A stretch of DNA of 25,213 bases, taken from IMG/VR virus record IMGVR_UViG_3300042197_002006, positions 1 to 25,213 of that record. One strand, given 5' to 3'. The DNA comes from a virus. Shown piece by piece: positions 1,446-24,262 of the stretch. A model generated the notes under the pieces. That model worked only from the letters and a program-made list of their open reading frames with translations. It was not told the origin of the DNA and made no database searches. Every line of letters begins with the position of its first letter. The first letter of the stretch is position 1. The translations under genes were made by a program, and so were the position numbers.

Positions 1446-1474
1446 ATTATAGTGCAAGAGTCAAATCCTGTCAA
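1446..1474 (-). promoter_or_regulatory. Consensus sigma70-type promoter for the SLH/barrel gene
   Basis: On the minus strand TTGACA (1474-1469) and TATAAT (1451-1446) are separated by 17 bases; both hexamers are perfect. The TGA stop of the upstream methyltransferase (1473-1471) is part of the -35. The predicted start near 1439 leaves a leader of about 65 bases. Confidence 0.85.
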
Positions 1475-3436: not shown

Positions 3437-4572
3437 AGTTCAATCCAAAATACTTCTTCGCAGGGAATTCCATAACAAATTCTATCGCCATATTTCTCCC
3501 CAAGATAGTCCTTTACCTGATCAATAATCGCTTGATTATCTAGAACATAAACTTTATATCCCTCGTCAAGAAGATCTAAACAAAGACGATATTGCTGACT
3601 TTCTGTAAGAATATCTGTTCCATCTTTGTATGAAATATACTGAAAATAAAATGGAAGGTTCTTATCGTTCTTTTTAAGAAAATAATTTTTTAGAAACTTT
3701 GCATGTTCGTTATTAAAGTCGTCGGTTGTAGCACCAAGATTATACTGTAGTCCTAGTTTCTTTGCGTATGCGGCAAAAGAACGATTATCTCTTGGAAGGC
3801 AAGGACCACCAAACCCATATCCATACCTTAGATACTTATTACCAACCCTAGTATCAGCACCAATTGCATTCAGAACAGTTCCAATTTCACTCTCCAATCC
3901 AGCAAGAGTCATTACCTCGCCAACCATATTTGCATAGCTAATTTTGGTTGTTAAGAAGCAGTTCACAGCAAGTTTCACAAGCTCTGCTGCGGTAGTGCTC
4001 ATTGAGTAAACCTTTGGTTCACTAATCTGAATCTTAGAATAGATATCTTTAATTTGTCCAAGATGTTGTCCCTCACCGCCAACCAAAACCATATCAGCAT
4101 ATTGTAGATCTTTAACAATAGATCCTTGAGCAATAAACTCTGGATTGTAAAATACATCTACTCCGTATGATTTAAGTTGTTCCTGGAACATTTCACAATC
4201 TCCAGGATTAGTGGTGCAACCAACTACAAAACTTTTACCAGTCAAAGGGAATTCACAAGACTGAATATCATTGACAACTTGCCACACAGCACTTACATCA
4301 TAGCTTCCGTCAGGTAGTGAAGGAGTTGCTACAAGTGTGTAGATAATATCACATTGCTTGATAACTTCAACATTATCAAGAACTGCTGTAAAGTTTTTAG
4401 CATCATCAAGTAACTCTGCTACTTGAGGTTCGTTAGTTGCGATGAATCTATTGTTCAGTCCAATGACATAATCATCACGGCAGTCAGAAACAATCACTTC
4501 ATAGCCTGCTTTCTCAAGAAGAAGGGCAAAACAAATGCCCAGTCTCCCAGCTCCGATAACTCCAATCTTCAT
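3433..4572 (-). CDS. UDP-glucose/GDP-mannose-type 6-dehydrogenase
   Basis: The 379-residue enzyme has an N-terminal NAD-binding Rossmann fold (IGAGRLG, residues 6-12), NPEFIAQGS (143-151), the central helix KLAVNCFLTTKISYANMVGE (200-219) and the catalytic loop GYGFGGPCLPRD (251-262) with the nucleophile at Cys258. The family oxidises the C6 hydroxyl of an NDP-sugar to a carboxylate, using two NAD+ per turnover and a Cys thioester. The exact sugar (UDP-Glc, UDP-GlcNAc/ManNAc or GDP-Man) cannot be told from motifs. The C-terminal domain is somewhat short and divergent. The start overlaps the NAD synthetase stop by four bases (ATGA). The coupling to a gene that makes its cofactor is notable. Confidence 0.85.
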   Translation of the reverse strand: MKIGVIGAGRLGICFALLLEKAGYEVIVSDCRDDYVIGLNNRFIATNEPQVAELLDDAKNFTAVLDNVEVIKQCDIIYTLVATPSLPDGSYDVSAVWQVVNDIQSCEFPLTGKSFVVGCTTNPGDCEMFQEQLKSYGVDVFYNPEFIAQGSIVKDLQYADMVLVGGEGQHLGQIKDIYSKIQISEPKVYSMSTTAAELVKLAVNCFLTTKISYANMVGEVMTLAGLESEIGTVLNAIGADTRVGNKYLRYGYGFGGPCLPRDNRSFAAYAKKLGLQYNLGATTDDFNNEHAKFLKNYFLKKNDKNLPFYFQYISYKDGTDILTESQQYRLCLDLLDEGYKVYVLDNQAIIDQVKDYLGEKYGDRICYGIPCEEVFWIEL

Positions 4573-5399
4573 AGTTTAAATGTAGGAATAGACAACATTT
4601 TATGTTTATTTTGGGTGTTGAATTTTTGATATTGCTTGATTGCTGTTTTTTGTTCTTCAGTAATTTCTTGTCCTTTCCATGTCGTAAGATTGTCTGGATT
4701 AGCAAGAGGTGAGTTACACACTCCAGATTCCATCACCCACTCTAGTAGTTGATAAGAGGTGCCAATCTGAGTTTCATCAGTTCGACTATCCTCCCAGAGT
4801 CCATCTGTGGGAGGAGCATCAATAATACGTTGATCTACTCCAAGATGCCTTCCAAGTTCCCATACTTCAGTTTTGTATAAGTCAGCGATAGGTGCAATAT
4901 CAACACCACCGTCACCATATTTAGTATAAAACCCTACACCATAATCTTCAACTTTATTGCCAGTACCAACTACAATGCCACCTACAGTTCCAGCAACCTG
5001 ATATAGTGTTACCATCCGAAGACGTGATTTTGTATTAGCGTTTGCAAGAGGATTACTCGTGTAATCTGTACTATCAGTCCACCAATTAAGACTATGTACA
5101 AACTTTTCATAGACACCAGAAAGTTCCACACGAATTCTAGTAACATTACTGTAGTTACTTTCAAGCCACTTTGTATGATCATCAGAAAGTCTATCGTTAT
5201 CAAGACTTGAATGTAGAGGCATTGAAAGGACGTAAGTGGGTAGTCCAGTTTCTGCACACAAAGTAGAAACTACAGCAGAATCAATTCCGCCAGATACACC
5301 TACAACAAAAGATTTAACAGAGGGATTTTGTAGGATATAATCACCTAGCCATTTAACAATGTCATTTTTTAGTTTTTCGTAGTCTGTAATTCGGTTCAT
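4569..5399 (-). CDS. nadE: NAD+ synthetase, ammonia-type
   Basis: The 276-residue protein matches NadE, which amidates deamido-NAD with ATP to form NAD+. It carries the PP-loop SGGIDS (residues 36-41), NTKSRLRM (122-129), GTGNKVED (145-152), and the run YTKYGDGGVDIAPIADLYKT (158-177), followed by PPTDGLWE (196-203). There is no N-terminal glutaminase domain, so ammonia is the likely nitrogen donor. ATG at 5399 is preferred because it overlaps the previous stop as ATGA; a frame extending to 5420 has seven extra, unsupported residues. A related PP-loop enzyme that amidates sugars is the alternative, but the deamido-NAD-type C-terminal motifs are well kept. Confidence 0.85.
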   Translation of the reverse strand: MNRITDYEKLKNDIVKWLGDYILQNPSVKSFVVGVSGGIDSAVVSTLCAETGLPTYVLSMPLHSSLDNDRLSDDHTKWLESNYSNVTRIRVELSGVYEKFVHSLNWWTDSTDYTSNPLANANTKSRLRMVTLYQVAGTVGGIVVGTGNKVEDYGVGFYTKYGDGGVDIAPIADLYKTEVWELGRHLGVDQRIIDAPPTDGLWEDSRTDETQIGTSYQLLEWVMESGVCNSPLANPDNLTTWKGQEITEEQKTAIKQYQKFNTQNKHKMLSIPTFKL

Positions 5400-6250
5400 A
5401 ATACTATCCAATCTGGGCAATAAAGATCTTTAGTGTCTTTCTCTGCATAGGCAGGTCCAAACCATTTCTTAGGTGCGATAACTTTTTTATTAGGGTTTGA
5501 AATCAACCAAGCACCCCACCAACTCATAGAACTATTAGCAATAATAGCATGAGAACACAAAGACATCAAGCATAGATCTGCGTATGGAGTATATGAACCA
5601 TCATCATATTTCTCTTGAGGCTCTGAGATTAGAAAGCGATCATCTGAGAAAAATTCCTGTTCTTTTACCCACTCTGGAGAATCAGAAAAAACAATTACAG
5701 GTTGATTATCGTCAAATTCTGAAAGTGCTTCTTCATAATATTCAAGAGGTTGTACTGGATGTTGATCGCCGCACTGAGTATAACTCCATTTAAATCCACG
5801 AGGATCAACTAAATTAGGATCGCCTCTACGGACGTGGAGCATGATTGGTTCTCCTTCTACAGAGTCTATCATCTCCTTACAAGGTTGCAAGTGTGCATCA
5901 TGAAATGTAAAGTCTTTACGAATTTCATCTGAGATGTGTTTGAAATATTTTTCAGACTGAAAAAATCCATGAAGACTTACATTATCAGGGCACTGATCGA
6001 ATAGTTCTTCATCAAAATGAAAGAATCTTTCCCCAACATATTGATAATGCTCGACAAAATTAAGGTTATCTTCATTTACTGATTCTAACTTAAAACACTG
6101 CTGAAGACTGTAATTTTCAATACCAGTTCGATTAAATGGGGGGATACACCATTCATATCCATGTCTTGCCGCAATTCCTCTTACAGCTGCATACTCAAAC
6201 ATCTGGTTTCCAAGTCTTCCCAGATTCCCAATTTGATTAAACGCTAACAT
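5396..6250 (-). CDS. GT11 fucosyltransferase-like enzyme, copy A
   Basis: This 284-residue protein has the GT11 (alpha-1,2-fucosyltransferase, FutC/WbsJ-like) motifs: GRLGNQMFEYAA (residues 11-22), HVRRGD (139-144, binds the GDP-sugar) and NSSMSWWGAW (239-248). GT11 enzymes move L-fucose from GDP-fucose onto the 2-OH of galactose or a similar sugar. No GDP-fucose synthesis genes lie in the window, but a GDP-mannose 3,5-epimerase does, so GDP-L-galactose is a possible donor. It shares its plan with copy B (7803-8666), including FQSEKYFKHI in both, which suggests duplication. The start overlaps the end of the upstream GT gene by 14 bases. Confidence 0.85.
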   Translation of the reverse strand: MLAFNQIGNLGRLGNQMFEYAAVRGIAARHGYEWCIPPFNRTGIENYSLQQCFKLESVNEDNLNFVEHYQYVGERFFHFDEELFDQCPDNVSLHGFFQSEKYFKHISDEIRKDFTFHDAHLQPCKEMIDSVEGEPIMLHVRRGDPNLVDPRGFKWSYTQCGDQHPVQPLEYYEEALSEFDDNQPVIVFSDSPEWVKEQEFFSDDRFLISEPQEKYDDGSYTPYADLCLMSLCSHAIIANSSMSWWGAWLISNPNKKVIAPKKWFGPAYAEKDTKDLYCPDWIVL

Positions 6251-7052
6251 ATTTCTTTAAGTAATCTTGCTTTGAATAATACTCAGTTAATTCCTCTTTG
6301 TTCATCCTAGAAAGTTTTACCCATTCATAATGATTAGATTCCATGTGTGGGTTATGTGTCCAAGAGTTTTCTCCTCTTGCATGTTCTAAATGATATACAA
6401 AGTCTTGAACTCTTCCTACATTATAACCTAACGTTACAAATCTGTAAAATCTTTCCTTATCTTCTGGGGCATAGGCTACAAAATTTTCATTTTCCATATA
6501 TCCATCAAGATATACTTGACGATTAAAGAATTGTGCCCAACCAAAATCTGAGGTATGAATGTTTGATTTTTCATCAAGAATGGTATAATCTCCAGTTTCT
6601 AAAAATTTTGAAGCTATATCATCATCTGCATCAACTTGCTTTTGATAATTTCCATGTCCATATGGATAAACAACGTCATATGTTTTATTCAAAATTGCAT
6701 TATACGCTGTCAGATATGAATCAATGGGAAGAATAACATCACAGTCATAGTTAATAACAACTTCTGTAGTTGCTTTTGCCAACATTTCATTTAGTATTTT
6801 TTGGCGATGAAAAGATTCAGATTCACTCCACTCAAAGATATGATCAATATTCACATCCACATCAAGAATTTCTTTTAGGATTGGGATTACATGTTTGTCA
6901 ATATGAGATTCTCTATCAACCTCTTTGATAATAATGTTAGTGTCAAAATTTTCTAAAAGAAATGCAGTTGTAGTAACAACATTTCTCAGTCTATCTTCTG
7001 TTTCAACTCTGACTGGAATAATAAAAGTTGCCTTTGTTAGATCATGTCTCAT
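6237..7052 (-). CDS. GT-A glycosyltransferase, galactosyltransferase-like
   Basis: The 271-residue protein has a GT-A start (ATFIIPVRVETEDR, residues 8-21), a metal-binding DxD within NYDCDVILP (101-109; D103-C-D105) and a C-terminal segment with SDFGWAQFFNRQVYLDG then APEDKERFYR. This second part resembles the GW...ED...R region of beta-1,4-galactosyl/GalNAc transferase C-terminal domains (GT2/GT7/GT27-like). The acceptor and sugar are unknown. It overlaps the GT2 gene upstream by 11 bases and the GT11 gene downstream by 14, so it lies inside a tightly packed run of four transferase genes. Confidence 0.7.
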   Translation of the reverse strand: MRHDLTKATFIIPVRVETEDRLRNVVTTTAFLLENFDTNIIIKEVDRESHIDKHVIPILKEILDVDVNIDHIFEWSESESFHRQKILNEMLAKATTEVVINYDCDVILPIDSYLTAYNAILNKTYDVVYPYGHGNYQKQVDADDDIASKFLETGDYTILDEKSNIHTSDFGWAQFFNRQVYLDGYMENENFVAYAPEDKERFYRFVTLGYNVGRVQDFVYHLEHARGENSWTHNPHMESNHYEWVKLSRMNKEELTEYYSKQDYLKKYVSV

Positions 7053-7806
7053 CTGGATACCTCCTCAATTCATAAAAGTCTGCGTGTTTCTGATGCAGAT
7101 AATTAAGTTCCTCACTATTTACCAACCATCTTCTCCCATCAGTTCCCTGAAGAACTACATCATAGTCAATTCCACTTGCACTCGTTCTTGCCTCATGCTC
7201 ACGATTGGCAACTAGAATATCAGGAATGATGCATGGCAATCCATTCTCCATTCTCATTCTATGATAGAACTCAGTATCAACCAAAAGTTTTAACTTACGA
7301 TCCAAATACATTTTGGATTCATTTAGAAATGCCACGCAAGATGGACTACCCAGTAAGTTGTTTCCCTCAAGTAACATCTCTGCCCACTCAGGCACACAAT
7401 CTCTATGAGTTTCTACACCATCTGTAGTGTGAGTAAATCCATGAAACAACCATTTACATCCGCTTTCATCAAAAGCATTTTTGATCTTTTCAAGTGCAGC
7501 ATCGTCAACGAAAAGATCATCTTGCATGATTAACTTAATAATCCTTCCCTCAGCATTTTCAATTACACAGTTGATGTTTGAAGCTTGATACCCTCTATCA
7601 TTTGGGTTCTTCATGTAAGTGATAGAAAACTCTTCGCTATTGTTTTCACAAAAGTCATGGATCTCATCATCTTTACTGTGATCAGAAATTACAATTTCAA
7701 AGTCTTGAAATGTTTGTTTTCTTAATCCATCAAAAATTTCTGAAAGATATCTTACTCCCTCACCTCTAAATTCATAGGTTGGGATACATACCGAAATCTC
7801 ACTCAT
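7042..7806 (-). CDS. GT2-type glycosyltransferase
   Basis: The 254-residue protein opens with SVCIPTYEF (residues 5-13), the usual GT2 beginning. It continues with QTFQDFEIVISDHSKDDE (31-48), a nucleotide-binding segment, and with MQDDLF (94-99), where QDD takes the DxD place. Later come CVPEWAEML and a histidine/arginine-rich acceptor region. I chose ATG at 7806 because it overlaps the stop of the upstream GT11 gene as ATGA and begins right before the GT2 fold; a frame extending to 7854 adds a Gly/Lys-rich leader with no support. The sugar it transfers is unknown. Confidence 0.75.
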   Translation of the reverse strand: MSEISVCIPTYEFRGEGVRYLSEIFDGLRKQTFQDFEIVISDHSKDDEIHDFCENNSEEFSITYMKNPNDRGYQASNINCVIENAEGRIIKLIMQDDLFVDDAALEKIKNAFDESGCKWLFHGFTHTTDGVETHRDCVPEWAEMLLEGNNLLGSPSCVAFLNESKMYLDRKLKLLVDTEFYHRMRMENGLPCIIPDILVANREHEARTSASGIDYDVVLQGTDGRRWLVNSEELNYLHQKHADFYELRRYPDET

Positions 7807-8666
7807 GACTTTACAACCCCAACCTCCTTTGCCTCTGCTGTTGTAGATGGACAATCATTGAAGTCTACATCAAGATACTTCCAACGATCAACAAATACAT
7901 CTCTTGGATCTTGTCCATCTGGACCGAACCACATCGTAGGTCCAATTACATTATCATGTCCAGCCAACCATGCACCCCACCAGGAGAATGTTGAGTTTGC
8001 CATGATACTATGAGAACACATAGACATCATACACATGTCAGTGATGTTATCACCACCTTCCGAAATTAAGAATCTATCACCCGAAAATAGTGGTTGCTGA
8101 GAGCACCACTCAGGATCATCAGAAAAAACGAGAACTGGAAGATCCGAATCAAAATGTGAGAGTGCTTCTTCATAATATGACATAGGAAGTAGAGCATGAT
8201 ACGTTGGTTTGATCAGATGATCAGTGCGTCGTACATGTAAGGAAATGGCTTTTCCATCAGGAACAATGCCATCAAAAATTTCTTTACACATATTCCATAC
8301 ATCATCACGCCAAGTAAAATCCTCACGAATTTCTTGTTCAATGTGTTTGAAATATTTTTCTGACTGGAAATAACCATAAAGATTAATATTATCTTCACAG
8401 TTGTCAAACAAATCCTGATCAAATGTGAAACTACCTTCTTCACGATAAGGTGCAGGAAACAAGTTTACTGCCTTTACTGAAGGTAGTTGAAATGCCATGA
8501 AGAGTTTGTGTTGGTTCTCTTCATCAGTAAACTCTTCATCAGTAGCAGGACCTGGTGGAATACACCAATCATATCCATGTCTTGCAGCAATACCTCTTGT
8601 TGCCGCATATTGGAACATTTGATTACCAAAACGTCCGTTTTTACCTAAGTGATTGTGTCCGATCAT
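7803..8666 (-). CDS. GT11 fucosyltransferase-like enzyme, copy B
   Basis: The 287-residue protein keeps the GT11 motifs GRFGNQMFQYAATRGIAARH (residues 11-30), HVRRTD (144-149) and NSTFSWWGAW (224-233). HVRRTD in place of HVRRGD occurs in known GT11 members. It is a paralogue of copy A at 5396-6250, with which it shares several identical short runs, but the acceptor-side middle third differs, so linkage or acceptor may differ. I use ATG at 8666, five bases after the previous stop; a TTG at 8675 would add three residues (MKI) and overlap the stop. It ends in a Ser/Thr/Glu tail. Confidence 0.85.
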   Translation of the reverse strand: MIGHNHLGKNGRFGNQMFQYAATRGIAARHGYDWCIPPGPATDEEFTDEENQHKLFMAFQLPSVKAVNLFPAPYREEGSFTFDQDLFDNCEDNINLYGYFQSEKYFKHIEQEIREDFTWRDDVWNMCKEIFDGIVPDGKAISLHVRRTDHLIKPTYHALLPMSYYEEALSHFDSDLPVLVFSDDPEWCSQQPLFSGDRFLISEGGDNITDMCMMSMCSHSIMANSTFSWWGAWLAGHDNVIGPTMWFGPDGQDPRDVFVDRWKYLDVDFNDCPSTTAEAKEVGVVKS

Positions 8667-8671
8667 AATTT

Positions 8672-9364
8672 TCAAATACTAATTTGTTTCGTCTTTTTCC
8701 AAAAAACAGATGCTGGATGAAACCCGCTTTCGCATGGTTCTGGTTGGCACATTTTTATTTCATCTTCTATTTCATATTTTTTTCTAAATTCATCAACAGC
8801 TACTGTGCAACCCCTAACCCCCGAATAATCATCAATGATGCAATATCCACCGACTTCTAATTTGTGATAAAGATAAATTAAAGATTCCCATGTAGATTCA
8901 TACATATCTCCATCTAATCTTAGCACAGAAATCTTTTCTATGTCACATTCTGGTAGACTATCTCTAAAAAATCCTTCTACAAAAATCACACTGTCATCAA
9001 TTTCACCAAAAATCCTAAAATTTTCCTTTACTTTTTCAACAGACACTGCAAGTTCTGGGTAACTGTAATGAATATCTCCCTCATCATGAGGATATAACTC
9101 AACATTTGGTGATGGAAGTCCCTGAAAAGAATCTGCAACATACACCTTTCTTTTCTCATTAAGTTCTTTAAGGACATAATAAGCGTATATGCAGGCTCCT
9201 CCTTTCCATACACCACATTCAATAAAGTCTCCCTGAACATTATTTTCAACTACATCACGAATGCAATACTCAATATTGTCAAGCAATTCTGGAGTTAGCA
9301 TTGTCAATCTAGTTGCAGGATTGTAGTTATCTACAATTCTATCTCTGGTTTGTTGTAGTGACAT
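8672..9364 (-). CDS. TylF/MycF-type sugar O-methyltransferase
   Basis: The 230-residue protein belongs to the macrocin O-methyltransferase family (PF05711-like). It shows the SAM motif GDFIECGVWKGGA (residues 45-57), DSFQGLPSP (78-86) and the metal/active-site stretch LRLDGDMYEST (148-158), followed by IIDDYSG (176-182). Relatives methylate hydroxyls of deoxysugars with Mg2+ and often act on bacterial polysaccharides. Likely role here: methyl-capping or decorating a sugar in the glycan made by this cluster. Its start follows the DUF5672 gene by six bases after a purine-rich AAAGAAAA. Its stop (8674-8672) ends five bases before the GT11 copy B ATG. Confidence 0.85.
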   Translation of the reverse strand: MSLQQTRDRIVDNYNPATRLTMLTPELLDNIEYCIRDVVENNVQGDFIECGVWKGGACIYAYYVLKELNEKRKVYVADSFQGLPSPNVELYPHDEGDIHYSYPELAVSVEKVKENFRIFGEIDDSVIFVEGFFRDSLPECDIEKISVLRLDGDMYESTWESLIYLYHKLEVGGYCIIDDYSGVRGCTVAVDEFRKKYEIEDEIKMCQPEPCESGFHPASVFWKKTKQISI

Positions 9365-9370
9365 TTTTCT

Positions 9371-10048
9371 TTAAAGGACAGTTCCTGGTGGTAAATGATA
9401 ATGGAAACCAAAAGGAGTAATTCCTTCTGTTTCGGGAAGTTGTTTTTCGTGAGAGAATCTAGCCGCAACTTCAATTGGAGCGATCTTGCATCCAACTGCC
9501 TCATAAACATGTCGATTATGTACACAAATAATGCCGTCTTCTGATGTAAATCCAACTCCCATATGTTTATAAAAGTCTCCCCAGTTTACATCAAAATGAA
9601 CGTATGCTCTTTTGGGGACATCAAGAAGTTTTTTGCTGCGGAAAGAGAATCCACCATTACCAACGCGATGTCCTTTACCCCACGGATCCAAATAAGCATC
9701 GGGAGCAATCATCCAAGGAGCACCGATATAATCATAATTAAACCAATCATCATCCCATTTTTCTGGGTTGATTACAAATCCATCGGGTTGAACAAGCAAA
9801 CAATATTCAGTATCAATGTGTTGAGATAAATTGTAAATACAATAATAATTGTACTCATGAATTGATCTGATCTCATGCAATGATTTGCAAAATTCAATTC
9901 CTTCGGGAAGATTTCCAGGATCTTCGTGAGTAATGAGTTTTACTTTTCCAAACTCAATACCCTTCATACTATGCTGAAGAGCAAAAAGTGCTCCTGGAAC
10001 ATTATTAGATGATAAACAAAAAAGTGTCACATTTGGCAAACGAATCAT
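9371..10048 (-). CDS. DUF5672 protein, putative glycosyltransferase
   Basis: The 225-residue protein matches the DUF5672 pattern: a central QPDGFV (residues 87-92) followed by NPEKWDDDWFNYDYIGAPW (94-112), then GNGGFSFRSKKLL (130-142). Members are found in polysaccharide clusters and are thought to be GT-A-type transferases, with QPDGF as the DxD-like site; the reaction has not been established. The ATGA overlap with the preceding gene supports ATG at 10048. There are no membrane segments. Confidence 0.7.
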   Translation of the reverse strand: MIRLPNVTLFCLSSNNVPGALFALQHSMKGIEFGKVKLITHEDPGNLPEGIEFCKSLHEIRSIHEYNYYCIYNLSQHIDTEYCLLVQPDGFVINPEKWDDDWFNYDYIGAPWMIAPDAYLDPWGKGHRVGNGGFSFRSKKLLDVPKRAYVHFDVNWGDFYKHMGVGFTSEDGIICVHNRHVYEAVGCKIAPIEVAARFSHEKQLPETEGITPFGFHYHLPPGTVL

Positions 10049-10980
10049 AAGTCACCTTGATAGATATCTGAAACAATTTTATATTCTTCCCATTCCTTCC
10101 TACATTGTTCGGGAGAAAAAAGTCTTCCCTCCCTATCCATATAGTGGCTAGGATAACTATATATGCTTGATCCAAGAGACCACCATCCTTGGGATCTATT
10201 GTGATCAAACCAATATTTTGGTGCAATGCAATACTCTAAAGTATCGCTTGTCCATAAAGGCCAGCAAGCAAAAGTAGATGCTCCACAAATTACATGCCTG
10301 GCATTTTTTATGGCAACATAATCCCATGCCACACTCTCATGATATGCTGGATATTCCGGAAGAACTAGATTTGCAGTTTTTACATCTTCTGTAATAATAG
10401 CAAACTCCATGTTGGGATTGTAATCCAACATGGCTCTTATAGCATTATCATAATAAGAACGAGGAAGCCAACATCCTGGATTACCAATCATATCACTTCC
10501 ACGAAAATTTATGATACAAATATTTTCACCATTCGTATCATAGTGGTTATAGTCTGAATTAACCTTTAACCATTTCTTTACCAAATCAATCTCATCATAA
10601 AAATATTCTTCTGACTGAAAACTTCCATCAATTTTTGTGTTATCAGGAATTTGAAAAAGATTCTTATCAGTCAAACGTATATCAGTTTGGAGGTATGGAT
10701 CAGTATGAAGTCCATGCCGATATTCTCTATAATAATTGTCAATGCCTTCAGGTAAAGATTCTGGAGGACCTCCTGGAGGACTAAATCCCCCAGACACTTC
10801 CTTTCCCAAATCAAGATCCATAAAGTACACACCTTTATCATTGAATCTTCTATCTCCGAAATTTTCTAACCCCGAAAATCCATATTCAAATCCACGTTTG
10901 TGTGCAATCATTCTCGTCACTACATAGGCAAAAAGTTGATTTCCAAATCCTTGTCCATGGTAAAACTCAGTGATAACCAT
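10045..10980 (-). CDS. Divergent GT11-like transferase
   Basis: The 311-residue protein has an N-terminal GQGFGNQLFAY (residues 9-19) and FQSEEYF (121-127), like the two GT11 proteins of this cluster, so it appears to be a distant relative. The nucleotide motif reads NFRGSD (158-163) instead of HxRRG/TD, and the last motif reads GASTFACWPLW (233-243) instead of NSSxSWWGAW. A Gly/Pro-rich insert (about residues 63-78) is unusual. ATG at 10980 lies one base after the upstream stop; a TTG at 10989 would add three residues. The changes could alter donor choice or mean a different linkage. An inactive copy is less likely, since the fold motifs are kept. Confidence 0.6.
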   Translation of the reverse strand: MVITEFYHGQGFGNQLFAYVVTRMIAHKRGFEYGFSGLENFGDRRFNDKGVYFMDLDLGKEVSGGFSPPGGPPESLPEGIDNYYREYRHGLHTDPYLQTDIRLTDKNLFQIPDNTKIDGSFQSEEYFYDEIDLVKKWLKVNSDYNHYDTNGENICIINFRGSDMIGNPGCWLPRSYYDNAIRAMLDYNPNMEFAIITEDVKTANLVLPEYPAYHESVAWDYVAIKNARHVICGASTFACWPLWTSDTLEYCIAPKYWFDHNRSQGWWSLGSSIYSYPSHYMDREGRLFSPEQCRKEWEEYKIVSDIYQGDL

Positions 10981-10981
10981 A

Positions 10982-12280
10982 TCAACCAATAAATTTAGTA
11001 ACTACTTGATCAATATAATCAATCATAGAGTCATTGATTGTAGGAGAACAACCAAGGAAAAATACTTTATCCAAAACTTGATTTGCTTTTGGATACTTCT
11101 TAGCATCATCTAGATGAGAGTATCCTGGATGTAGAAGAATGTTACCAGCAAAATAGTTGCGAGTTTGAACTTTATTCTTTTCAAGAAAAGCAACCAAAGA
11201 TTCCTTAAGTTCTTTGGTATCACAAATGGTAGGAACTCCAAACCAACTTGTTTCAGCCTGGGGAAGTTCATTTACAACACGAACACCAGGGATCTTTTCC
11301 AGAATAGACTGGATTGCTTCCTTATTCTTCCTACGGAGTTTATGGATCTCTTCAAACTTCGTGAGTTGTACAGATCCCACACCACCCTGTAGATCCAGTG
11401 GTTTGAGATTGTAACCCATGTTGGAGAAGATATACTTGTGATCAACTATACCATCATAGTCTTTCAGCCAACGATCAAATCTCTTACCACAAGTTCCACA
11501 AGACAGAAGATTCTGTGCGCCAACACAGTAACAATCCCTACCCCACCAGGCAAAACTACGTGCAAGATCTACAATCTCTTTCTCATTGGAAGAAACCATA
11601 CCACCTTCAATTGTACAGAGGTGGTGAGCAGGATAAAAGGAACATGAAGCAGCAACTGCATAATCAGTCAGATAACTTCCACTCCACTTGCTACCCAGAC
11701 TATCACAATTGTCTGCAATAACAGCAATGCTATTTCTTCGGCAGAGATCAACAAACTTGTTTACGTTATAAGGATTGCCAAGAACAGGAGATGAGATTGC
11801 TGCTACAGTTCTGCTTGTAATTTTCTTTTCAACTTCCTCAAGATCCCAGTTAAGATCACTCCAATCAATATCTACAAAGACTGGTTTAAGTCCATTTTGT
11901 ACAATAGGAGCAATGGTAGTTGCAAATCCACAAGCACACACAATGATTTCGTCACCATCTTTCCACCCAAAATGCTTCTTAAGGGCAGCAAACATTACTA
12001 GGTTGGCAGAACTACCAGAGTTCACCATCACAGAATGCTTAAAGTTAAACTTTTTAGAGAACTCACGTTCAAATTTATGTACCTTTTCACCAGAAGACAA
12101 CCACTTACCCATCGTTACCGAATGGATAATCTCAATGATTTCGCTGTCATCCCAGTAAGGTCCAGAGTAATAAACAGAATCTGTCTCTGGATTAAAGTTC
12201 TTTTTATTTGCAATGAAAGGAAAAATATTATCCTCTATTTCTTTAGAGGACTCCAAAAATTTTTCAATAAGTTGATACAT
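10982..12280 (-). CDS. rfbH: NDP-4-keto-6-deoxyhexose 3-dehydrase (E1/RfbH type)
   Basis: The 432-residue protein is a DegT/DnrJ/EryC1/StrS-fold PLP enzyme. In SFYPAHHLCTIEGG (residues 214-227) a histidine (H220, E1 numbering fits) replaces the PLP-linking lysine of the aminotransferases. This is the mark of C3 dehydrases such as E1/RfbH and ColD. Cysteines C192, C250 and C252 keep the CX57CX1C spacing of the [2Fe-2S] site in E1. The fourth ligand is C261 or C264 in SCGTCGKRF, so the iron-sulfur type is favoured over ColD. E1 removes the C3 hydroxyl on the way to 3,6-dideoxyhexoses, with an E3 reductase that is not in the window. The gene follows its own likely promoter. Confidence 0.85.
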   Translation of the reverse strand: MYQLIEKFLESSKEIEDNIFPFIANKKNFNPETDSVYYSGPYWDDSEIIEIIHSVTMGKWLSSGEKVHKFEREFSKKFNFKHSVMVNSGSSANLVMFAALKKHFGWKDGDEIIVCACGFATTIAPIVQNGLKPVFVDIDWSDLNWDLEEVEKKITSRTVAAISSPVLGNPYNVNKFVDLCRRNSIAVIADNCDSLGSKWSGSYLTDYAVAASCSFYPAHHLCTIEGGMVSSNEKEIVDLARSFAWWGRDCYCVGAQNLLSCGTCGKRFDRWLKDYDGIVDHKYIFSNMGYNLKPLDLQGGVGSVQLTKFEEIHKLRRKNKEAIQSILEKIPGVRVVNELPQAETSWFGVPTICDTKELKESLVAFLEKNKVQTRNYFAGNILLHPGYSHLDDAKKYPKANQVLDKVFFLGCSPTINDSMIDYIDQVVTKFIG

Positions 12281-12302
12281 ATTTGCAATTTAACGTACTA
12301 CT

Positions 12303-12331
12303 ACGATAACATAATTTGAATTGATAGTCAA
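12303..12331 (-). promoter_or_regulatory. Possible sigma70-type promoter for rfbH and genes behind it
   Basis: On the minus strand TTGACT (12331-12326) and TATCGT (12308-12303) are separated by 17 bases. The -35 has five of six consensus bases but the -10 only four. The TGA stop of the preceding gene (12330-12328) lies inside the -35, as at the SLH/barrel promoter. The 47-base gap is the longest inside the glycan cluster, which supports a second transcription start here. Confidence 0.45.
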
Positions 12332-13131
12332 GGTGCTGAGTTGGTGTGCATGGCATACTGAGTTTTACTTTTTAACATTGCACGATGAACATTGTTATAC
12401 ATCAAATAGTCTGCAATTCTATTTTCAAAAGCACCTCTACCTCCATATGGAGCCACTGCCTGAATAGAATTTGATCCAACGCACTCTTGATAATCAATTG
12501 TTTTTAATTTTTGAACATTCCCTATAAAGACTCCATCCCAAAATGTTGCACTACACCAAAAATCTTCAAGTTCCTGTTCAGGAGTAAACCCAGGAACATT
12601 GACTTGTTCCCACTCTCCTTGGCATGTTATACCTCTACCATGTATTTGTTCAGATTCCCATGAAGTAAATGTTGGATATCCATGAATACTCCAATCTTTT
12701 TCGGTAGGTAAACTTGTAACAACATACTTGTTATCTTCACCCAAAAGACGTATTGATTTTTCAAAGAAACTATCCTTTACACAAATATCAACACAACAAT
12801 CAGAACTAACGTTAAAGAAATATGGTGTTGTGCAAGTTAGAATATTTACAAAATACGGGACGGTGTAATTATATCCCAAGTCTCCCTCTTGCGTATTTAA
12901 TTTAAAAAAATCAATTGCTTCACTAGCATGATCACTCACATAAACTAATTCTACCTCATCTGAATCATAAAGTTCATTTAAAATATCCTCAAATTCTTGA
13001 GTTGAATTTAAATTATTAACGAGTAATCTTTTTTTAGTAATATAGTTGCTTTTGAAATTCCTAAACCAAGAATTTTCTTTTAGATGAAATCTAAAGTTTT
13101 TCTCATACAAAATTGTAGTTAAAGTGATCAT
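12328..13131 (-). CDS. Probable GT-A-like protein, family not recognised
   Basis: The 267-residue protein has no family I can name. A predicted strand (TPYFFNVSSDCCVD, about residues 102-115) followed by an acidic residue looks like the DxD region of a GT-A fold. The stretch EVELVYVSDHASE (59-71) before it fits a nucleotide-binding beta-strand. It ends with YGGRGAFENRIADYLMYNN, reminiscent of acceptor-side helices. The ATGA overlap with the DUF3431 gene supports the start. Glycosyltransferase is an inference from position and fold hints. Confidence 0.45.
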   Translation of the reverse strand: MITLTTILYEKNFRFHLKENSWFRNFKSNYITKKRLLVNNLNSTQEFEDILNELYDSDEVELVYVSDHASEAIDFFKLNTQEGDLGYNYTVPYFVNILTCTTPYFFNVSSDCCVDICVKDSFFEKSIRLLGEDNKYVVTSLPTEKDWSIHGYPTFTSWESEQIHGRGITCQGEWEQVNVPGFTPEQELEDFWCSATFWDGVFIGNVQKLKTIDYQECVGSNSIQAVAPYGGRGAFENRIADYLMYNNVHRAMLKSKTQYAMHTNSAP

Positions 13132-13874
13132 TGCTTTTCAATCAAGTTTTCTGTCCAAATATAATATAAGAATCTTTCACACAAATAAGACTCTCCAGAA
13201 GTTCTTACGTATGGAGGATTTGGTACATAAGATACGATCTCTTGAAGTTTCTGATAGAAACTTTTACTATATTTTAAAATAATTTCTTTTGGAACTGCAT
13301 AGTTACCACCAGGAGCAAATTGAATTACATCTCTCTTGGGAGGATCAACAAAAAATGCATCAGATATTTCATGAAAATCTCCAAAGTATCTTGTCTCTAC
13401 ATCATTATTATAATAAAAATTAGCATAATGAACAGGTTGAGCAAAAGTTTCATTTTCTCCAACTAAAGAGGTTGGATGATACCTATCAATAGGTAAAAAC
13501 TTATCAGTCTGTAAAGCCTCTGCAAATTTTTCTCTGGTTGTATAGTAAAACTCATCAATCTCATAATCTTCCCCAGGTTTTGGATGATTATGTGTTTGAT
13601 CTTTTTTTCTGGAAAATAAATTTCCTTTAATGAAAATGCTCATATCAGGAAGTGATTCATAATTCTCAATTATGAACCGAAATATATCATAGATATTTTC
13701 TCCAACATTTGGACTTTTAATGTACTCTCCAAGATGAGAAAAGTCTTCCCCATACTCGTCAGGAGTTCTGGAATATATTACGGTATTCTGAGAAGAGAAA
13801 CCGTAGTCATATGTAGTTTTTAACCACTCAAGATCCGTGCAATAATTTGATACTACTAATTTTCTATTTGTCAT
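13128..13874 (-). CDS. DUF3431-like protein, putative glycosyltransferase
   Basis: The 248-residue protein shows the DUF3431 pattern: VVSNYCTDLEWLK at the N-terminus (residues 7-19), PNVGENIYDIFRFIIENY (55-72) with LPDMSIFIKG (75-84), then a C-terminal APGGNYAVPKEII followed by FYQKLQEI. DUF3431 proteins often sit in glycan clusters of bacteria and fungi. Their chemistry is not established, but they look like GT-A proteins. The stop overlaps the next gene (ATGA). The start lies two bases after the FkbM stop. Confidence 0.55.
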   Translation of the reverse strand: MTNRKLVVSNYCTDLEWLKTTYDYGFSSQNTVIYSRTPDEYGEDFSHLGEYIKSPNVGENIYDIFRFIIENYESLPDMSIFIKGNLFSRKKDQTHNHPKPGEDYEIDEFYYTTREKFAEALQTDKFLPIDRYHPTSLVGENETFAQPVHYANFYYNNDVETRYFGDFHEISDAFFVDPPKRDVIQFAPGGNYAVPKEIILKYSKSFYQKLQEIVSYVPNPPYVRTSGESYLCERFLYYIWTENLIEKQ

Positions 13875-13876
13875 TT

Positions 13877-14626
13877 TCAGTTATTTGCAAGTGAAAGGAT
13901 TTTTTCAGAGTATTCTTTTCTAACAGCAACCATATTACATCCACTTGCCTCTACCATATGCTGCCTAATAACTTGATACACATCTTCGCTCAGAGGAGTT
14001 AGGAGTTTATCATTTAAAGGATAATACGGATGCTCTGGAGAAACTCTAAGGAGATATAAATCAAAAATATTTTTATCAAACCAACCAATATAATCTTCCG
14101 GAGAAATTTTTCTATCTAACATGGTGGAAGCAAATTCAAATTGAATTACCTTTGTTCCTTTATTTAAAATCTCTTTACCACCATTAAAACAATCAATCTC
14201 CATTCCTTCAATATCTATTTTTAGAAAATCAATATTTTCAATTTCCTTTTCTTTACAATAACCATCTAGAGTTTTGATTGGGAAAGATATTCCTACATCT
14301 TGAGATGTTGTATGAACAGTCCTGAAAACAAATGATTGCGTGTTTGGAAAATATGCCAATTCTCCTTCTTGTTCTCCTAATCCAAAAGTATTAAAATAAA
14401 CTTCATTTTCAACATCATCAGGAGCTTCAAGTTCTTCAAGTTGTTTGTAACAACTCAGAACAAAATTTGGGTCTGGTTCAAACATATGAAATTCTCTATA
14501 TTTATCAAAAGAATTTTTCAAGTAATCAATATCATCTCGCAATCCGATATCAAATACAACAGAAATATCTTCTTTAATTCTATTAAAAAATTCAATCTCA
14601 ATGGAGTTAAATGGAGAAAATGGCAT
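13877..14626 (-). CDS. FkbM-family methyltransferase, copy 1
   Basis: The 249-residue protein has FkbM motifs: VVFDIG (residues 23-28), MFEPDP (48-53), IKTLDGYC (117-124) and FLKIDIEGMEIDCFNGG (134-150). FkbM-type SAM enzymes methylate hydroxyls in polyketides and also occur in LPS and glycoprotein clusters. Motif I here runs DIGLRDD where family members usually have DVGANxG; the acidic bend after Gly is unusual and may affect SAM binding. One-base spacing to the exostosin-like gene suggests co-expression. Confidence 0.75.
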   Translation of the reverse strand: MPFSPFNSIEIEFFNRIKEDISVVFDIGLRDDIDYLKNSFDKYREFHMFEPDPNFVLSCYKQLEELEAPDDVENEVYFNTFGLGEQEGELAYFPNTQSFVFRTVHTTSQDVGISFPIKTLDGYCKEKEIENIDFLKIDIEGMEIDCFNGGKEILNKGTKVIQFEFASTMLDRKISPEDYIGWFDKNIFDLYLLRVSPEHPYYPLNDKLLTPLSEDVYQVIRQHMVEASGCNMVAVRKEYSEKILSLANN

Positions 14627-14627
14627 T

Positions 14628-15560
14628 TTAAATTAAGCTATTGGATACAATTTTATTATAGAAGTTTGATAAAATCAACTCTTCATGATTTATATTTTTT
14701 ACTTCTTGATATAGATTCTCATTGGCAATCAATAGTTCTTCTGTAATATCAGAATAAGTATCGACAAAAAGGACGGGATAATCTTTAAATAAAACTTCAA
14801 GATATGGATGACGTTTCATTACTGGAACTCTTTTCATATAAAGAACTTCCCAATTACGATGACAATCTATGGCACACCCTCTTGGACATAACATAAATTT
14901 ACATCTTCTAAGTTTTGAAAGGAATTCTCTATACTCAACTCTTTGCTCATCTACTATTGCCCAATCTTTACCAACAAACAATGATTTGATTCCTACTCTA
15001 TCTGAATGGGAACTTTCGTTATGACTTACATAAAGTAAATTAAGTTTAGATGGTTCAGGGAACATCATATATTCTTTGAGATCTTCAATTCTTCCATCTT
15101 GTGGGGACATTCTTCTCTGCACACCATAGGGAGCAGGAATTACTTTACATCCATGAGAGATAGCATTTACTGCGGAAATGCACAAAACATTCTCAGGAAT
15201 AGAATCAAAGATGAAATCGTCAATAGGAGTATCCTCTAAATTTGTAAAAATGATGAACTTCATATCTGGAAAATTTCCACATAGATGAAGTAGATCATTC
15301 TTAGAGTGAAGGGAATCTACATATGGACGATCAGATTCGCTTACTTCTACAATATTCCTTTTGTATAAACGAATGTTATCAATAAACAAAGTCATATAAT
15401 CACGACTTTTCTTTACTTCAAATAACTTAGATACAAATTCAACATTAAGGAGATTTGCTTCTTTCATAAAAGAAGTGTAAATATTACCCCACTTCCCAGA
15501 CTGATCTCCAAAAGAATAATCACAAAGGTTTGAAAGTGCTACTCCCTCAATCAATTCCAT
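14628..15560 (-). CDS. Exostosin-like (GT47-like) transferase
   Basis: The 310-residue protein is weakly similar to the C-terminal half of exostosin-type GT-B transferases. It has SKLRRCKFMLCPRGCAID (residues 215-232), an HRNWEVL helix (234-240), VPVMKRHPYLE (245-255) and a closing SDITEELLIANENL. In GT47 enzymes this CPRG...R..E..G..PV pattern forms the nucleotide-sugar pocket; here the Gly before PV is an Arg. I see no membrane anchor. The assignment is tentative, and a novel GT-B family is possible. It overlaps the GT17 gene by ten bases. Confidence 0.55.
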   Translation of the reverse strand: MELIEGVALSNLCDYSFGDQSGKWGNIYTSFMKEANLLNVEFVSKLFEVKKSRDYMTLFIDNIRLYKRNIVEVSESDRPYVDSLHSKNDLLHLCGNFPDMKFIIFTNLEDTPIDDFIFDSIPENVLCISAVNAISHGCKVIPAPYGVQRRMSPQDGRIEDLKEYMMFPEPSKLNLLYVSHNESSHSDRVGIKSLFVGKDWAIVDEQRVEYREFLSKLRRCKFMLCPRGCAIDCHRNWEVLYMKRVPVMKRHPYLEVLFKDYPVLFVDTYSDITEELLIANENLYQEVKNINHEELILSNFYNKIVSNSLI

Positions 15561-16408
15561 GACTTAATATATTCAGCATACTTTTCCTGATTATTAATAA
15601 TGTATTCTGGGTAAGAATCATCAATGGGAACAGCATTAAGACGATTTGATCTTCCAATGGGATCTAGTCCTTCTTCAATTCTTTGCTCCATATTATCAAC
15701 ATTAGAAGAAATATTATTTTCTGTATGCTCGTATGAAGCAAGTTTTAGGCGAACATTATCTGCATCACCCAAGAAACTGAAATGCCATCCAGCATTTTCA
15801 ATCAGATATGCCTTTCTCCAATCGGTACGTAAACGATCTACAGTGGTTGTCTTCAAATGCTTGAAGGTAGAAAGTCTTGTCCCTTTCCAATTCTCTTCGT
15901 ACAAATAGTTGAGTTTGAAATAGAACGCTCTTTGTAGAGCAACATAATTACATGTTGGATCAAACCAATCCAGATCATCAATCACATATGGATTAATGAT
16001 TTCATCCGCATCACTTGTCATCACAATGTCATCATCAGTTGCCCCCGCTTTAACAAGTCCGTAAGCACTGCATTCACGATTGTAAACAGCTCTCTGAAAA
16101 CGAATAGGGAGATCAATGTAACGTGTTCCGCTTTCGTCAGTTGTGCTATAGTCAGTGTGAAAAGGTTTCTTAACAAGATATTGGCTAAAGTCATTAGGAA
16201 TTTCTTCAGTAATATTGTGAATGATCTTGTCATTGAACTTACCAAATCTATCTTTATTTTCTTGATAGAACAATGGTTTCTCATTTCCACTTACTGTAAA
16301 AGGAGATTCAGTCAAAACGAAATAATCAACAACATCGTTTAGAATATTGAGACGAAGATCCAACAAATCCAATTCATTGAAAAAAATGAACGAATCAAAT
16401 ACTTTCAT
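15551..16408 (-). CDS. Glycosyltransferase family 17
   Basis: The 285-residue protein is a clear GT17 (PF04724-like) member. It starts with FDSFIFFNELDLLDLRL (residues 4-20) and VDYFVLTES (27-35), has the DxD site in MTSDADEI (129-136), and GWHFSFLGD (206-214) followed by a helix ending in SYEHTE. The best known member is eukaryotic MGAT3, which adds bisecting GlcNAc in beta-1,4 linkage. Bacterial and viral members occur in surface-glycan clusters and their sugars are mostly unknown. The start is set by the leading beta-strand. It lacks the membrane anchor of the eukaryotic enzyme. Confidence 0.85.
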   Translation of the reverse strand: MKVFDSFIFFNELDLLDLRLNILNDVVDYFVLTESPFTVSGNEKPLFYQENKDRFGKFNDKIIHNITEEIPNDFSQYLVKKPFHTDYSTTDESGTRYIDLPIRFQRAVYNRECSAYGLVKAGATDDDIVMTSDADEIINPYVIDDLDWFDPTCNYVALQRAFYFKLNYLYEENWKGTRLSTFKHLKTTTVDRLRTDWRKAYLIENAGWHFSFLGDADNVRLKLASYEHTENNISSNVDNMEQRIEEGLDPIGRSNRLNAVPIDDSYPEYIINNQEKYAEYIKSWN

Positions 16409-16411
16409 AGT

Positions 16412-17116
16412 TTAACCTTTGTAAATGACTTCTAGACAACGCTTTTCTCTACTGCCAGTAAATCCACCTTCAATATAAGGGATAAGTCTATCCATATCAA
16501 CTGCAGTTGGATCAACCCACCAATCTTCAAATGGATCATTACCAACATTAGAAACATTCTTAGCAATCAAAACATATCCAAGAGATTCTAGTAAATCAAT
16601 TTGTTCTTGTTGAACATGAGGATCTTGTCCGATGTAAATTGCAGTTTCAAAACAAATTACAGAAAATCTATAGTCATTGTGAGGAAGTGCCTTGAGAGAA
16701 TCCAAAGTCTGTTGTGCTGGTTCAATGTCAACCTGTAAGAAATCAATTTGCTTAGGAAAATTATACTCTTTTAAGATCTTTGAATAATCTGCCTTTGTAG
16801 CATCTTCACATAGGCAAGGATTTTTTCTTTTGGATACATAACTGTTCCAACCTGGTTCCAACCACTCAAAAGCAATACCAGTCCAATCGTATTGAGATTC
16901 TAAAAGATAAGTGTTATTGATTCCAATACCATCAGCACCACCAATTTCAAGGTATGTGCCATTTCTTTTACCGTCAAGAACACTCAAAACAAAAATGTCT
17001 TGAAGAGACTGTGAGTAGTTTTGCTCAATATTTTCTGCAGTATCAAATTTAACTCTAAGATTTTCGCAGTTCTCTTTAAAGTAAGTATTAGGATTTATAT
17101 ATTCTGGGTTAATCAT
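16412..17116 (-). CDS. FkbM-like methyltransferase, copy 2
   Basis: The 234-residue protein shows the FkbM subgroup pattern SQSLQDIFVLSVL (residues 35-47) and GTYLEIGGADGIGINNTYLLE (53-73, SAM site), followed by WTGIAFEW. Start choice: ATG at 17116 has a GGAG six bases upstream and overlaps the previous stop as TAATG, whereas a frame extending to 17128 would begin with TTG. The C-terminal half contains QVDIEPAQQTLDSL, where this family usually has DxEGxE; the loss of the Gly may change the active site. It differs strongly from copy 1, so the two are not a recent duplication. Confidence 0.7.
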   Translation of the reverse strand: MINPEYINPNTYFKENCENLRVKFDTAENIEQNYSQSLQDIFVLSVLDGKRNGTYLEIGGADGIGINNTYLLESQYDWTGIAFEWLEPGWNSYVSKRKNPCLCEDATKADYSKILKEYNFPKQIDFLQVDIEPAQQTLDSLKALPHNDYRFSVICFETAIYIGQDPHVQQEQIDLLESLGYVLIAKNVSNVGNDPFEDWWVDPTAVDMDRLIPYIEGGFTGSREKRCLEVIYKG

Positions 17117-18108
17117 TAGTTTCTCCAATAATCATAGATGTTCTTAGTGACTTCATAGTCCATTTTTTTAACTTTTCTATTTGGTTGAGTCATAGCCCAA
17201 ACAAATACACTTTCAATTAAATCATAGAGATTAGTTTCATCCCTAAAGTTTAGCATAGTTTTTGCTTTTGTATGATCACAATAAGCATGTTTTACTTCGT
17301 GACGTGGTTCACCATATTCAATTGGAACCTCATATCCATATTTTTTAGCAATCGACTGAACAGTTTTAGCAACTTCATTTAATGAAAAGTACTTATCTGC
17401 TCCGATATTAAATGTCTCTCCGTCAAAATCAGTGAGAAGTTTATCAAATGGTTCCATGTAATATTTGATATCAGAGAAAGCACGAGTCTGTTCTCCATCT
17501 CCATAAACAAGAATTGGTTCTCCATTCAATGCCTTACGAATAAAAATACCAATCACATTACGATACTTATCCCAAATGTTCTGGTATACTCCCAAAACAT
17601 TGTGAGGACGAACAATGTTATAACGAAGTCCAAATTGCTCATGTGCCAGTTTTAAGTCACACTCTACAGCATACTTAGCGATACCATATGGATCAATTGG
17701 TTGTGGTTTTTTGTCCTCAGTGAATGGAGGTTCCTGCTCACCATAAACAGCCATACTTGAAGTGAAGATTACCTTTGTATCATGAGCAATGCACTCATTA
17801 ATTAAATTTGCAGAGCAAACCAAATTATTACGATAGTTAAAATTACGAATAAAAGGAGACAATCCTTCTGCAGCATAAGCGGCAAAATGAACTAGAATTT
17901 CTGGTTTATGTTCTTCAAAGAGTTCTACAACTTTTTTCCTTTTTTCAAGGTTGAGTTTTACAAAAGTAAAATTTTCTCCCTTGGGCACAAATGCTTTGTA
18001 TCCCCCAGAGAGATCATCAATACCAATAACTTGATGATTATTTTGAATTAGGTGTCTTGTATAATTTGCGCCTAGAAGTCCAGCGCATCCAGTTACAAAT
18101 ATTTTCAT
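17116..18108 (-). CDS. GalE-like NDP-sugar 4-epimerase (extended SDR)
   Basis: The 330-residue protein is an extended short-chain dehydrogenase/reductase. It carries the NAD motif TGCAGLLG (residues 6-13), HFAAYAA (74-80), catalytic TSSMAVYG (116-123) and Y141xxxK145 in YGIAKYAVE, and VYGDGEQTRAFSDI. It resembles UDP-glucose 4-epimerases, which swap the C4 hydroxyl (Glc to Gal). Cluster variants often act on other NDP-hexoses, so the substrate is not fixed by motifs. ATGA overlap with the fucosyltransferase-like gene sets the start. The unusual Cys after the first Gly (GCAG) is seen in some relatives and does not break the motif. Confidence 0.8.
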   Translation of the reverse strand: MKIFVTGCAGLLGANYTRHLIQNNHQVIGIDDLSGGYKAFVPKGENFTFVKLNLEKRKKVVELFEEHKPEILVHFAAYAAEGLSPFIRNFNYRNNLVCSANLINECIAHDTKVIFTSSMAVYGEQEPPFTEDKKPQPIDPYGIAKYAVECDLKLAHEQFGLRYNIVRPHNVLGVYQNIWDKYRNVIGIFIRKALNGEPILVYGDGEQTRAFSDIKYYMEPFDKLLTDFDGETFNIGADKYFSLNEVAKTVQSIAKKYGYEVPIEYGEPRHEVKHAYCDHTKAKTMLNFRDETNLYDLIESVFVWAMTQPNRKVKKMDYEVTKNIYDYWRN

Positions 18109-18935
18109 TCTGGCAATTGATATTCTAACATTAATTTTCTTTGTTCAGTATCATTTAGCCAACTACAAGGATATACTGGAATATATCCCTGCAATTCTAC
18201 CTCATAAACTGTAACATCTGTATTACACAGCATAGAGCAATTTAAATGCTCTGTCAAGTATGCACTAGATGCAAAAAGATTTTTGATATTCTTTGAGCAT
18301 AATGCTGCTGATACTGCAAAAGTTCCAACTCCACCAGTTGCTAGATTTTTTGCTGCTAATAGAGTTGCATAGTCTTCAGCAATAGATAAAGACTGAAATT
18401 TTAATCTATCAATCTTTTTCAATTCAGGAACAACTGGATTATTATTTTCAGGTTCTGCAACAACGATTACGTTTCCAAAATCCTCAATCAAAGCAAGATA
18501 GTATGACAAAGGATTCTGAACATAGTTATGTGGTTCCTCTTTTGAATATTCATGGGCAATGATATCTCCGCCACGAATATGAATGACTAGAGTATCATCA
18601 TCAAATGGTTCTAATTCAGGAACTTTGAGGTGTGGGTAAATGTAGTCTTTACACACTCTTCTCATATTTGAATATGCATGATCTTTACTCACACCAATCT
18701 CATTCCCACCATCAAGAGTTTTATTACCACAATTTACAATTGGTTCCCAAGTATAAAATCTACCAGATCCAGAGTCTTGATTTTCTCCAAATGTAATAGA
18801 AAATTTGTCAAGGATTTCATGATCTAGAGATTGAGAAAAAGTATTCTTTGTTGCTTCAGCTAACATAATAGCATTAGCAGTTTGTTGAATATTATTACCA
18901 ACTCTCCCCGACCAATGAGAAACTGAATACGTCAT
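18105..18935 (-). CDS. Fucosyltransferase-superfamily-like protein
   Basis: The 276-residue protein carries the two hallmarks of the GT-B fucosyltransferase superfamily: GRVGNNIQQTANAI near the N-terminus (residues 10-23) and HIRGGD (119-124), the GDP-sugar pocket. The C-terminal motif TGGVGTFAVSAAL replaces the NSSxSWWGA of GT11. This suggests a separate branch, closer in outline to bacterial O-antigen fucosyltransferases and GT23-like proteins than to the two GT11 copies. Donor may be GDP-fucose or GDP-L-galactose. Both ends overlap neighbours as ATGA. Confidence 0.6.
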   Translation of the reverse strand: MTYSVSHWSGRVGNNIQQTANAIMLAEATKNTFSQSLDHEILDKFSITFGENQDSGSGRFYTWEPIVNCGNKTLDGGNEIGVSKDHAYSNMRRVCKDYIYPHLKVPELEPFDDDTLVIHIRGGDIIAHEYSKEEPHNYVQNPLSYYLALIEDFGNVIVVAEPENNNPVVPELKKIDRLKFQSLSIAEDYATLLAAKNLATGGVGTFAVSAALCSKNIKNLFASSAYLTEHLNCSMLCNTDVTVYEVELQGYIPVYPCSWLNDTEQRKLMLEYQLPE

Positions 18936-20364: not shown

Positions 20365-20366
20365 AA

Positions 20367-21443: not shown

Positions 21444-21477
21444 AGATGAATAATTTACTCCTAGTATATATTGTACT

Positions 21478-24241: not shown

Positions 24242-24262
24242 ATACAAAAAATCTCTAATAAG

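Follow-up and report, generated by a model that had tools for sequence, protein, structure and literature searches.

Large cyanophages carry glycan gene clusters whose role is unknown (PMC3037559), and a sugar 3-dehydrase gene within a phage-like cluster raises the question of which sugar the encoded enzyme helps to make. We addressed this question for IMG/VR record IMGVR_UViG_3300042197_002006. The window analyzed here spans the whole 25,213 bases of this record, which is complete as a record but covers only part of a larger, cyanophage-like genome. A co-oriented glycan gene array runs through it on the minus strand (1471..24247), with successive genes overlapping or nearly abutting (gaps of -49 to +50 bases), and probably forms a single transcript. 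Scans for promoters and terminators near the 3-dehydrase gene gave results at or near chance level.

The 3-dehydrase gene is an uninterrupted open reading frame of 432 codons on the complement of 10982-12280, an interval whose plus-strand reading contains stops. The 432-residue product scores 244 bits against PF01041, the DegT/DnrJ/EryC1/StrS fold (cut-off 19.8), and its best solved relative is E1 (3bcx; E = 3e-63, 217 bits); the H220K form of E1 is also a top match, and ordinary sugar aminotransferases score behind. Pairwise dN/dS between the window gene and four relatives is 0.03-0.20, with dS near saturation, and the gene is under purifying selection. These ratios, the match to E1 and a score of 360 bits against the NCBIfam RfbH model exclude a chance match. 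Foldseek ranks E1 first (3bcx, TM 0.81/0.83), ahead of ColD, for the AlphaFold model (mean pLDDT 84); the model is weak at the cysteine loop, where segments 253-255 and 261-269 fall under pLDDT 50 and cluster geometry is not readable.

Alignment to 3bcx identifies the active-site and cluster residues. The cofactor position of the window protein has no lysine: where sugar aminotransferases carry their PLP-binding lysine stands His219 (codon 11624..11626, minus strand), equivalent to E1 H220 and found in 104/104 rows of our main alignment, which holds 104 rows besides E1 and ColD. The first-pass annotation had recognized this replacement but placed it at residue 220, which is either the E1 number or one off. 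The four predicted cluster ligands, all encoded on the minus strand, are Cys192 (codon 11705..11707; E1 C193), Cys250 (11531..11533; C251), Cys252 (11525..11527; C253) and Cys264 (11489..11491; C261). As that annotation had also noted, the spacing of the first three is identical to that in E1 and a small insert precedes the last; the insert measures four residues (X11 in the window enzyme versus X7 in E1). Window C261 is a less conserved alternative for the fourth ligand (83/104 rows). D193, Y216 and F347 correspond to E1 D194, Y217 and F345.

These residues are strongly conserved. C192, H219 and H220 are present in every row of the main alignment, and C250, C252 and C264 are kept in all rows but one, the paralog L104:2443-3609, which was included deliberately as a contrast and which we call ColD-like because it has the histidine and is missing three of the cysteines. 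In a second alignment of 26 rows, the histidine and all four cysteines are invariant. A second DegT-family protein occurs in the same virus record as a 3-dehydrase in several instances (L104:2443-3609; G010-G013, G016 and G029).

ColD membership was rejected for the window protein itself, which has the iron-sulfur cysteines and scores lower against ColD (167 bits) than against E1. Cysteines, sequence score and fold match all favor the E1-type assignment made at first pass, and we place the protein with high confidence among the PMP-dependent, iron-sulfur sugar 3-dehydrases of E1/SpnQ type, with a predicted [2Fe-2S] cluster. A 3-deoxy sugar, which had been proposed on the same grounds, is therefore the natural reading, as an intermediate.

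Within this superfamily the window enzyme is nonetheless placed by its sequence in a separate clade rather than among E1/RfbH proper. Its 360 bits against NF011936 (RfbH) lie below the curated cut-off of 423. In a 48-row tree it sits in a 31-row clade with support of 100/99; the sister clade (13 rows, also 100/99) holds E1, Salmonella and Sulfitobacter RfbH, the canonical Cyanobiaceae RfbH and three Streptomyces enzymes, and the tree program warned that long branches meet where the two clades join. RmlA and RmlB lie beside two of the Streptomyces genes, and a 2,3-dehydratase beside the third. Searches recovered members of the window clade and their relatives from 523 viral stretches, 80 of which we retained, and from 19 cellular contigs; viral locus counts below use n = 81, the window included. 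Close relatives include the 3-dehydrase of record G002 (94% identical) and proteins of Synechococcus phages RB11-B and RN05-S (73.5% identical). Some of the cellular contigs resemble virus DNA in bacterial bins: L082, filed with L085 under Saprospiraceae or Flavobacteriales, carries several cyanophage glycan-cluster genes and probably represents viral DNA that was placed in a bacterial bin.

The phage relatives, together with a high-light-inducible gene in the window, point to Cyanobiaceae as the probable host family, and we used 300 Cyanobiaceae genomes as a contrast set. We rejected the idea that the gene was recently captured from the common RfbH of the host, whose copies are only about 30% identical and lie in the other clade. 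Five of these genomes (G196, G314, G048, G137 and G059) hold a further RfbH-like group that scores about 300 bits and lies near CDP-glucose 4,6-dehydratase; its sole member in the tree, L148, has a very long branch.

The genes that accompany the 3-dehydrase bear on its pathway. ORFs around 3-dehydrase genes were clustered, and relatives of window proteins were used as queries for counts of an extended SDR, encoded in the window at 21478..22329 (minus strand; GATGFIG at residue 19, YSITK at residue 120). This conserved partner co-occurs with the 3-dehydrase in 52 of the 81 viral loci and adjoins it in 15/19 cellular contigs, which range from Prochlorococcus single-cell genomes to Bacteriovoracales and Nitrospirales. 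Like the 3-dehydrase, it has low pairwise dN/dS (0.07-0.20 between the window and four relatives, dS near saturation). We propose that it acts as a 4-ketoreductase; the nearest folds include both epimerases and an NADPH-dependent GDP-6-deoxymannose reductase, and the fold therefore leaves reductase versus epimerase undecided.

Upstream of the SDR gene on the same strand lie genes for RmlC, of the dTDP-4-keto-6-deoxyglucose 3,5-epimerase family (22292..22831; TIGR01221, 236 bits, cut-off 155.75), and for RmlB, dTDP-glucose 4,6-dehydratase (22806..23738; TIGR01181, 418.7 bits, cut-off 365.1). The window RmlB keeps the TDE and YSASK (YxxxK) motifs and scores only 100 bits against the CDP-glucose 4,6-dehydratase model (cut-off 278). 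The first gene of this block (23735..24247, minus strand) encodes a cytidylyltransferase-like protein that is above the cut-off of the generic TIGR00125 domain and under those of HldE domain II and glycerol-3-phosphate cytidylyltransferase; it is present in 29/51 SDR-type viral loci. In the window the four-gene block lies 9 kb upstream of the 3-dehydrase in the same co-oriented array. Elsewhere the association is tighter, with contiguous RmlB-RmlC-SDR-RfbH in loci L006 and L009, RmlB-SDR-RfbH in L040 and L042, and RmlA and RmlB adjoining SDR-RfbH in two Bacteriovoracales contigs (L088 and L099).

Which nucleotide the substrate carries was judged from this context. RmlB exceeds its curated cut-off in the window and in 13 of 35 other virus or phage records, and in 9/13 cellular genomes searched, though it was not seen in the stretch examined for about half of the SDR-bearing viral loci. 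The apparent absence of CDP-glucose enzymes from the window, itself a fragment, extends to the wider set: neither CDP-glucose 4,6-dehydratase nor glucose-1-phosphate cytidylyltransferase was above cut-off in any of 36 virus or phage records (window included), many of them fragments, though two complete cyanophages and one phage of 642 kb were among them. With RmlB in the block and the CDP genes absent, gene context favors a dTDP reading, and the substrate is most likely an RmlB-made dTDP sugar; this is deduced from neighbors, there being no known nucleotide-reading residue. Of the two sources first proposed, host partners or RmlB, the block thus favors the second.

We consider it unlikely that the same chemistry instead proceeds by a CDP route, in which a host CDP-glucose 4,6-dehydratase would supply CDP-4-keto-6-deoxyglucose and a host reductase would replace E3. 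Such a route would agree with the CDP specificity of E1, the nearest solved relative, and the host search suggested at first pass did recover CDP-glucose 4,6-dehydratase in 91/300 Cyanobiaceae genomes (RmlB is in 202/300). Both routes are likewise present in G037, a Bacteriovoracaceae genome that carries the viral-type gene and has a true CDP-glucose pair at a distance of about 18 kb. Gene proximity in the host family speaks against it, however: 41/44 canonical RfbH genes have CDP-glucose 4,6-dehydratase no more than 5 kb away, whereas none of three viral-type genes has (a further one, G215, was left out because it is probably a canonical gene broken in two). The lack of both CDP genes from the virus and phage records and the repeated presence of RmlB in the same block weigh in the same direction.

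The electron donor presents a similar question. E1 takes electrons from E3, and SpnQ from ferredoxin or flavodoxin systems (PMC8987622). The reported lack of an E3 gene in the window holds more widely, with the NAD(P)H reductase domain PF00175 found in 0/25 viral records, three of which are long phage genomes; the host could supply one. A plant-type ferredoxin (Fer2), by comparison, lies 1.3-15.6 kb from the 3-dehydrase in 9/25 viral records, including G002. As the dTDP-acting relative SpnQ runs on ferredoxin/ferredoxin reductase (PMC8987622), a dedicated E3 may be dispensable, and by analogy a ferredoxin of virus or host could replace it as donor. Ferredoxins occur in 44/153 cyanophages, where other uses have been proposed (PMC10452541), and since phage ferredoxins serve other enzymes we treat their presence as weak evidence and a lead.

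Taken together, these observations make it moderately probable that an RmlB-made dTDP substrate, a ferredoxin donor and the SDR combine to yield a dTDP-3,6-dideoxyhexose. In this scheme an NDP-4-keto-6-deoxyhexose would bind PMP through its 4-keto group as a Schiff base; His219 would take a proton and the C3 hydroxyl would leave. Two single-electron transfers by way of the C192/C250/C252/C264 cluster would then reduce the resulting 3,4-glucoseen, and hydrolysis would release an NDP-4-keto-3,6-dideoxyhexose. The SDR (21478-22329) would reduce the 4-keto group to give the dTDP-3,6-dideoxyhexose, and a glycosyltransferase of the array would use the sugar, presumably placing it on the final glycan. 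In the ascarylose pathway an epimerase inverts C5, and RmlC might do so here.

The RmlB-RmlC-SDR trio could alternatively make dTDP-rhamnose, apart from the 3-dehydrase. The 9 kb that separate the SDR gene from the 3-dehydrase gene in the window also count against the combined scheme. Identification of the SDR as RmlD was nevertheless rejected: it scores only 45.8 bits, far under the cut-off of 224.

A different set of partners is found in other members of the clade. In 27 further viral loci a thiamine-diphosphate enzyme replaces the SDR directly after the 3-dehydrase, and one more locus has both. This carboligase arrangement (for example L045:11236-14624, L077:11230-14615 and L023:11287-14675) accounts for about a third of the related viral loci. 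Among solved structures, the thiamine-diphosphate enzyme is closest to 8rph (365 bits, against <=228 for the runners-up, which are named acetolactate synthases); 8rph is the YerE-like enzyme JanthE (PMC12188165). The substrate to which YerE attaches a two-carbon unit is CDP-4-keto-3,6-dideoxyglucose, and donors like 4-hydroxy-2-oxobutanoate are preferred by ErwE (PMC12247030). In 24 carboligase loci there is also a PanB-like protein that exceeds the PanB cut-offs, nearly always along with another SDR; acting on pyruvate, the PanB-like protein could supply a donor of this type. Similar pairs occur beside a viral-type 3-dehydrase in the Bacteroidia contig L089 and 2.7 kb away from one in the cyanobacterium L147, and a similar pair adjoins canonical RfbH in L131.

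The carboligase pairing lends independent support to the 3-dehydrase assignment. It also bears on the proposal, which we regard as very improbable, that the fold now performs other chemistry, such as PMP-dependent transamination or epimerization, with its cluster retained. That proposal draws on the origin of the family from sugar aminotransferases and on the precedents of SpnQ, which transaminates without its reductase, and E1 H220K, which shows non-catalytic transamination (PMC8987622). Against it, nearly every relative keeps the histidine at the lysine position, the four cysteines and D193/Y216/F347, and YerE-like partners need a deoxygenated 4-keto sugar in characterized pathways (PMC12247030). 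Although 'stuffer DNA' has been raised as a possibility (PMC3037559), we give hardly any credence to the view that large cyanophages carry their glycan genes mostly as filler and that the enzyme has no role, because dN/dS is low for both the 3-dehydrase and the SDR (0.03-0.20 overall), the key residues are invariant and the partners are kept across viruses and several bacterial groups.

More tentatively, and with considerable doubt, the two arrangements may be joined in a single picture. A third clade of iron-sulfur 3-dehydrases, in aquatic viruses and some bacteria, might feed both an SDR module that yields dTDP-3,6-dideoxyhexose and a carboligase module, each starting from one 4-keto-3,6-dideoxy sugar. 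In the carboligase module, a YerE/ErwE-like enzyme would branch C4. Its donor may be a hydroxylated 2-oxo acid that the neighboring PanB-like enzyme forms from pyruvate and methylene-tetrahydrofolate, and the product would be a virus-made, erwiniose-like branched sugar. Photosynthetic ferredoxin would drive the reduction during infection.

Other genes of the array suggest further tailoring or lie outside this scheme. A sugar C-methyltransferase-like protein (PF08484; 1471..2643, minus strand) might methylate a keto sugar intermediate; it recurs in just a few close relatives and is found in only 5/81 viral loci. An NAD synthase-like protein (4569-5420, minus strand; TIGR00552, 171.8 bits, cut-off 63.65) is encoded inside the array, and the ORF clustering shows relatives of it at 15 further loci. 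At the end of the array, 517-1374 (minus strand) encodes a 285-residue protein whose sequence resembles an S-layer-homology segment together with an outer-membrane barrel and which matches no PHROG; in phage RB11-B, a gene labeled 'outer membrane autotransporter barrel' lies close to the corresponding position.

A specific rare-sugar pathway turns the role of cyanophage glycan clusters into a matter of chemistry. A dTDP-3,6-dideoxyhexose made in infected cells would mean that the virus remodels the host surface or decorates its own particles. The scheme, if true, would also add the combination of dTDP with a 3,6-dideoxy sugar, and a ferredoxin-driven step, to a family with few biochemical examples.

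The window protein shares with E1 (AscC/DdhC/RfbH; the CDP-4-keto-6-deoxyglucose 3-dehydrase of Yersinia pseudotuberculosis, 3bcx) a common fold, the histidine in place of lysine, the D/Y/F set and four cluster cysteines, the first three equally spaced. Unlike E1, it belongs to a separate clade, carries the four-residue insert, falls under the RfbH equivalog cut-off and has neither CDP-glucose enzymes nor E3 nearby. It also differs from canonical RfbH of the host family, since the viral-type enzyme is paired with an SDR that is absent beside the canonical genes. ColD (GDP-4-keto-6-deoxymannose 3-dehydratase, 2gms) likewise has histidine for lysine, uses PMP and deoxygenates C3, but lacks the [2Fe-2S] cluster, and window C250, C252 and C264 have no counterpart in it.

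SpnQ, the dTDP-4-keto-2,6-dideoxyglucose 3-dehydrase of spinosyn biosynthesis, is alike by literature description, with a [2Fe-2S] cluster, the histidine, a dTDP substrate and a ferredoxin or flavodoxin donor. The SpnQ sequence is outside our tree, in which Streptomyces homologs from dTDP contexts fall with E1 in the sister clade; family searches, which covered part of the ORFs, named no 2,3-dehydratase in the window.

Virus-borne members of the family have been recorded before under automatic names. An rfbH is noted in a passage of a report on sargassum-associated viruses (PMC11295528), and Synechococcus phage S-H68 carries the annotation 'CDP-4-dehydro-6-deoxy-D-glucose 3-dehydratase'. Such labels, whether 'aminotransferase' or 'CDP-... 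3-dehydratase', probably mislead. To these known virus-borne enzymes, our analysis adds a clade, a conserved partner and a likely substrate.
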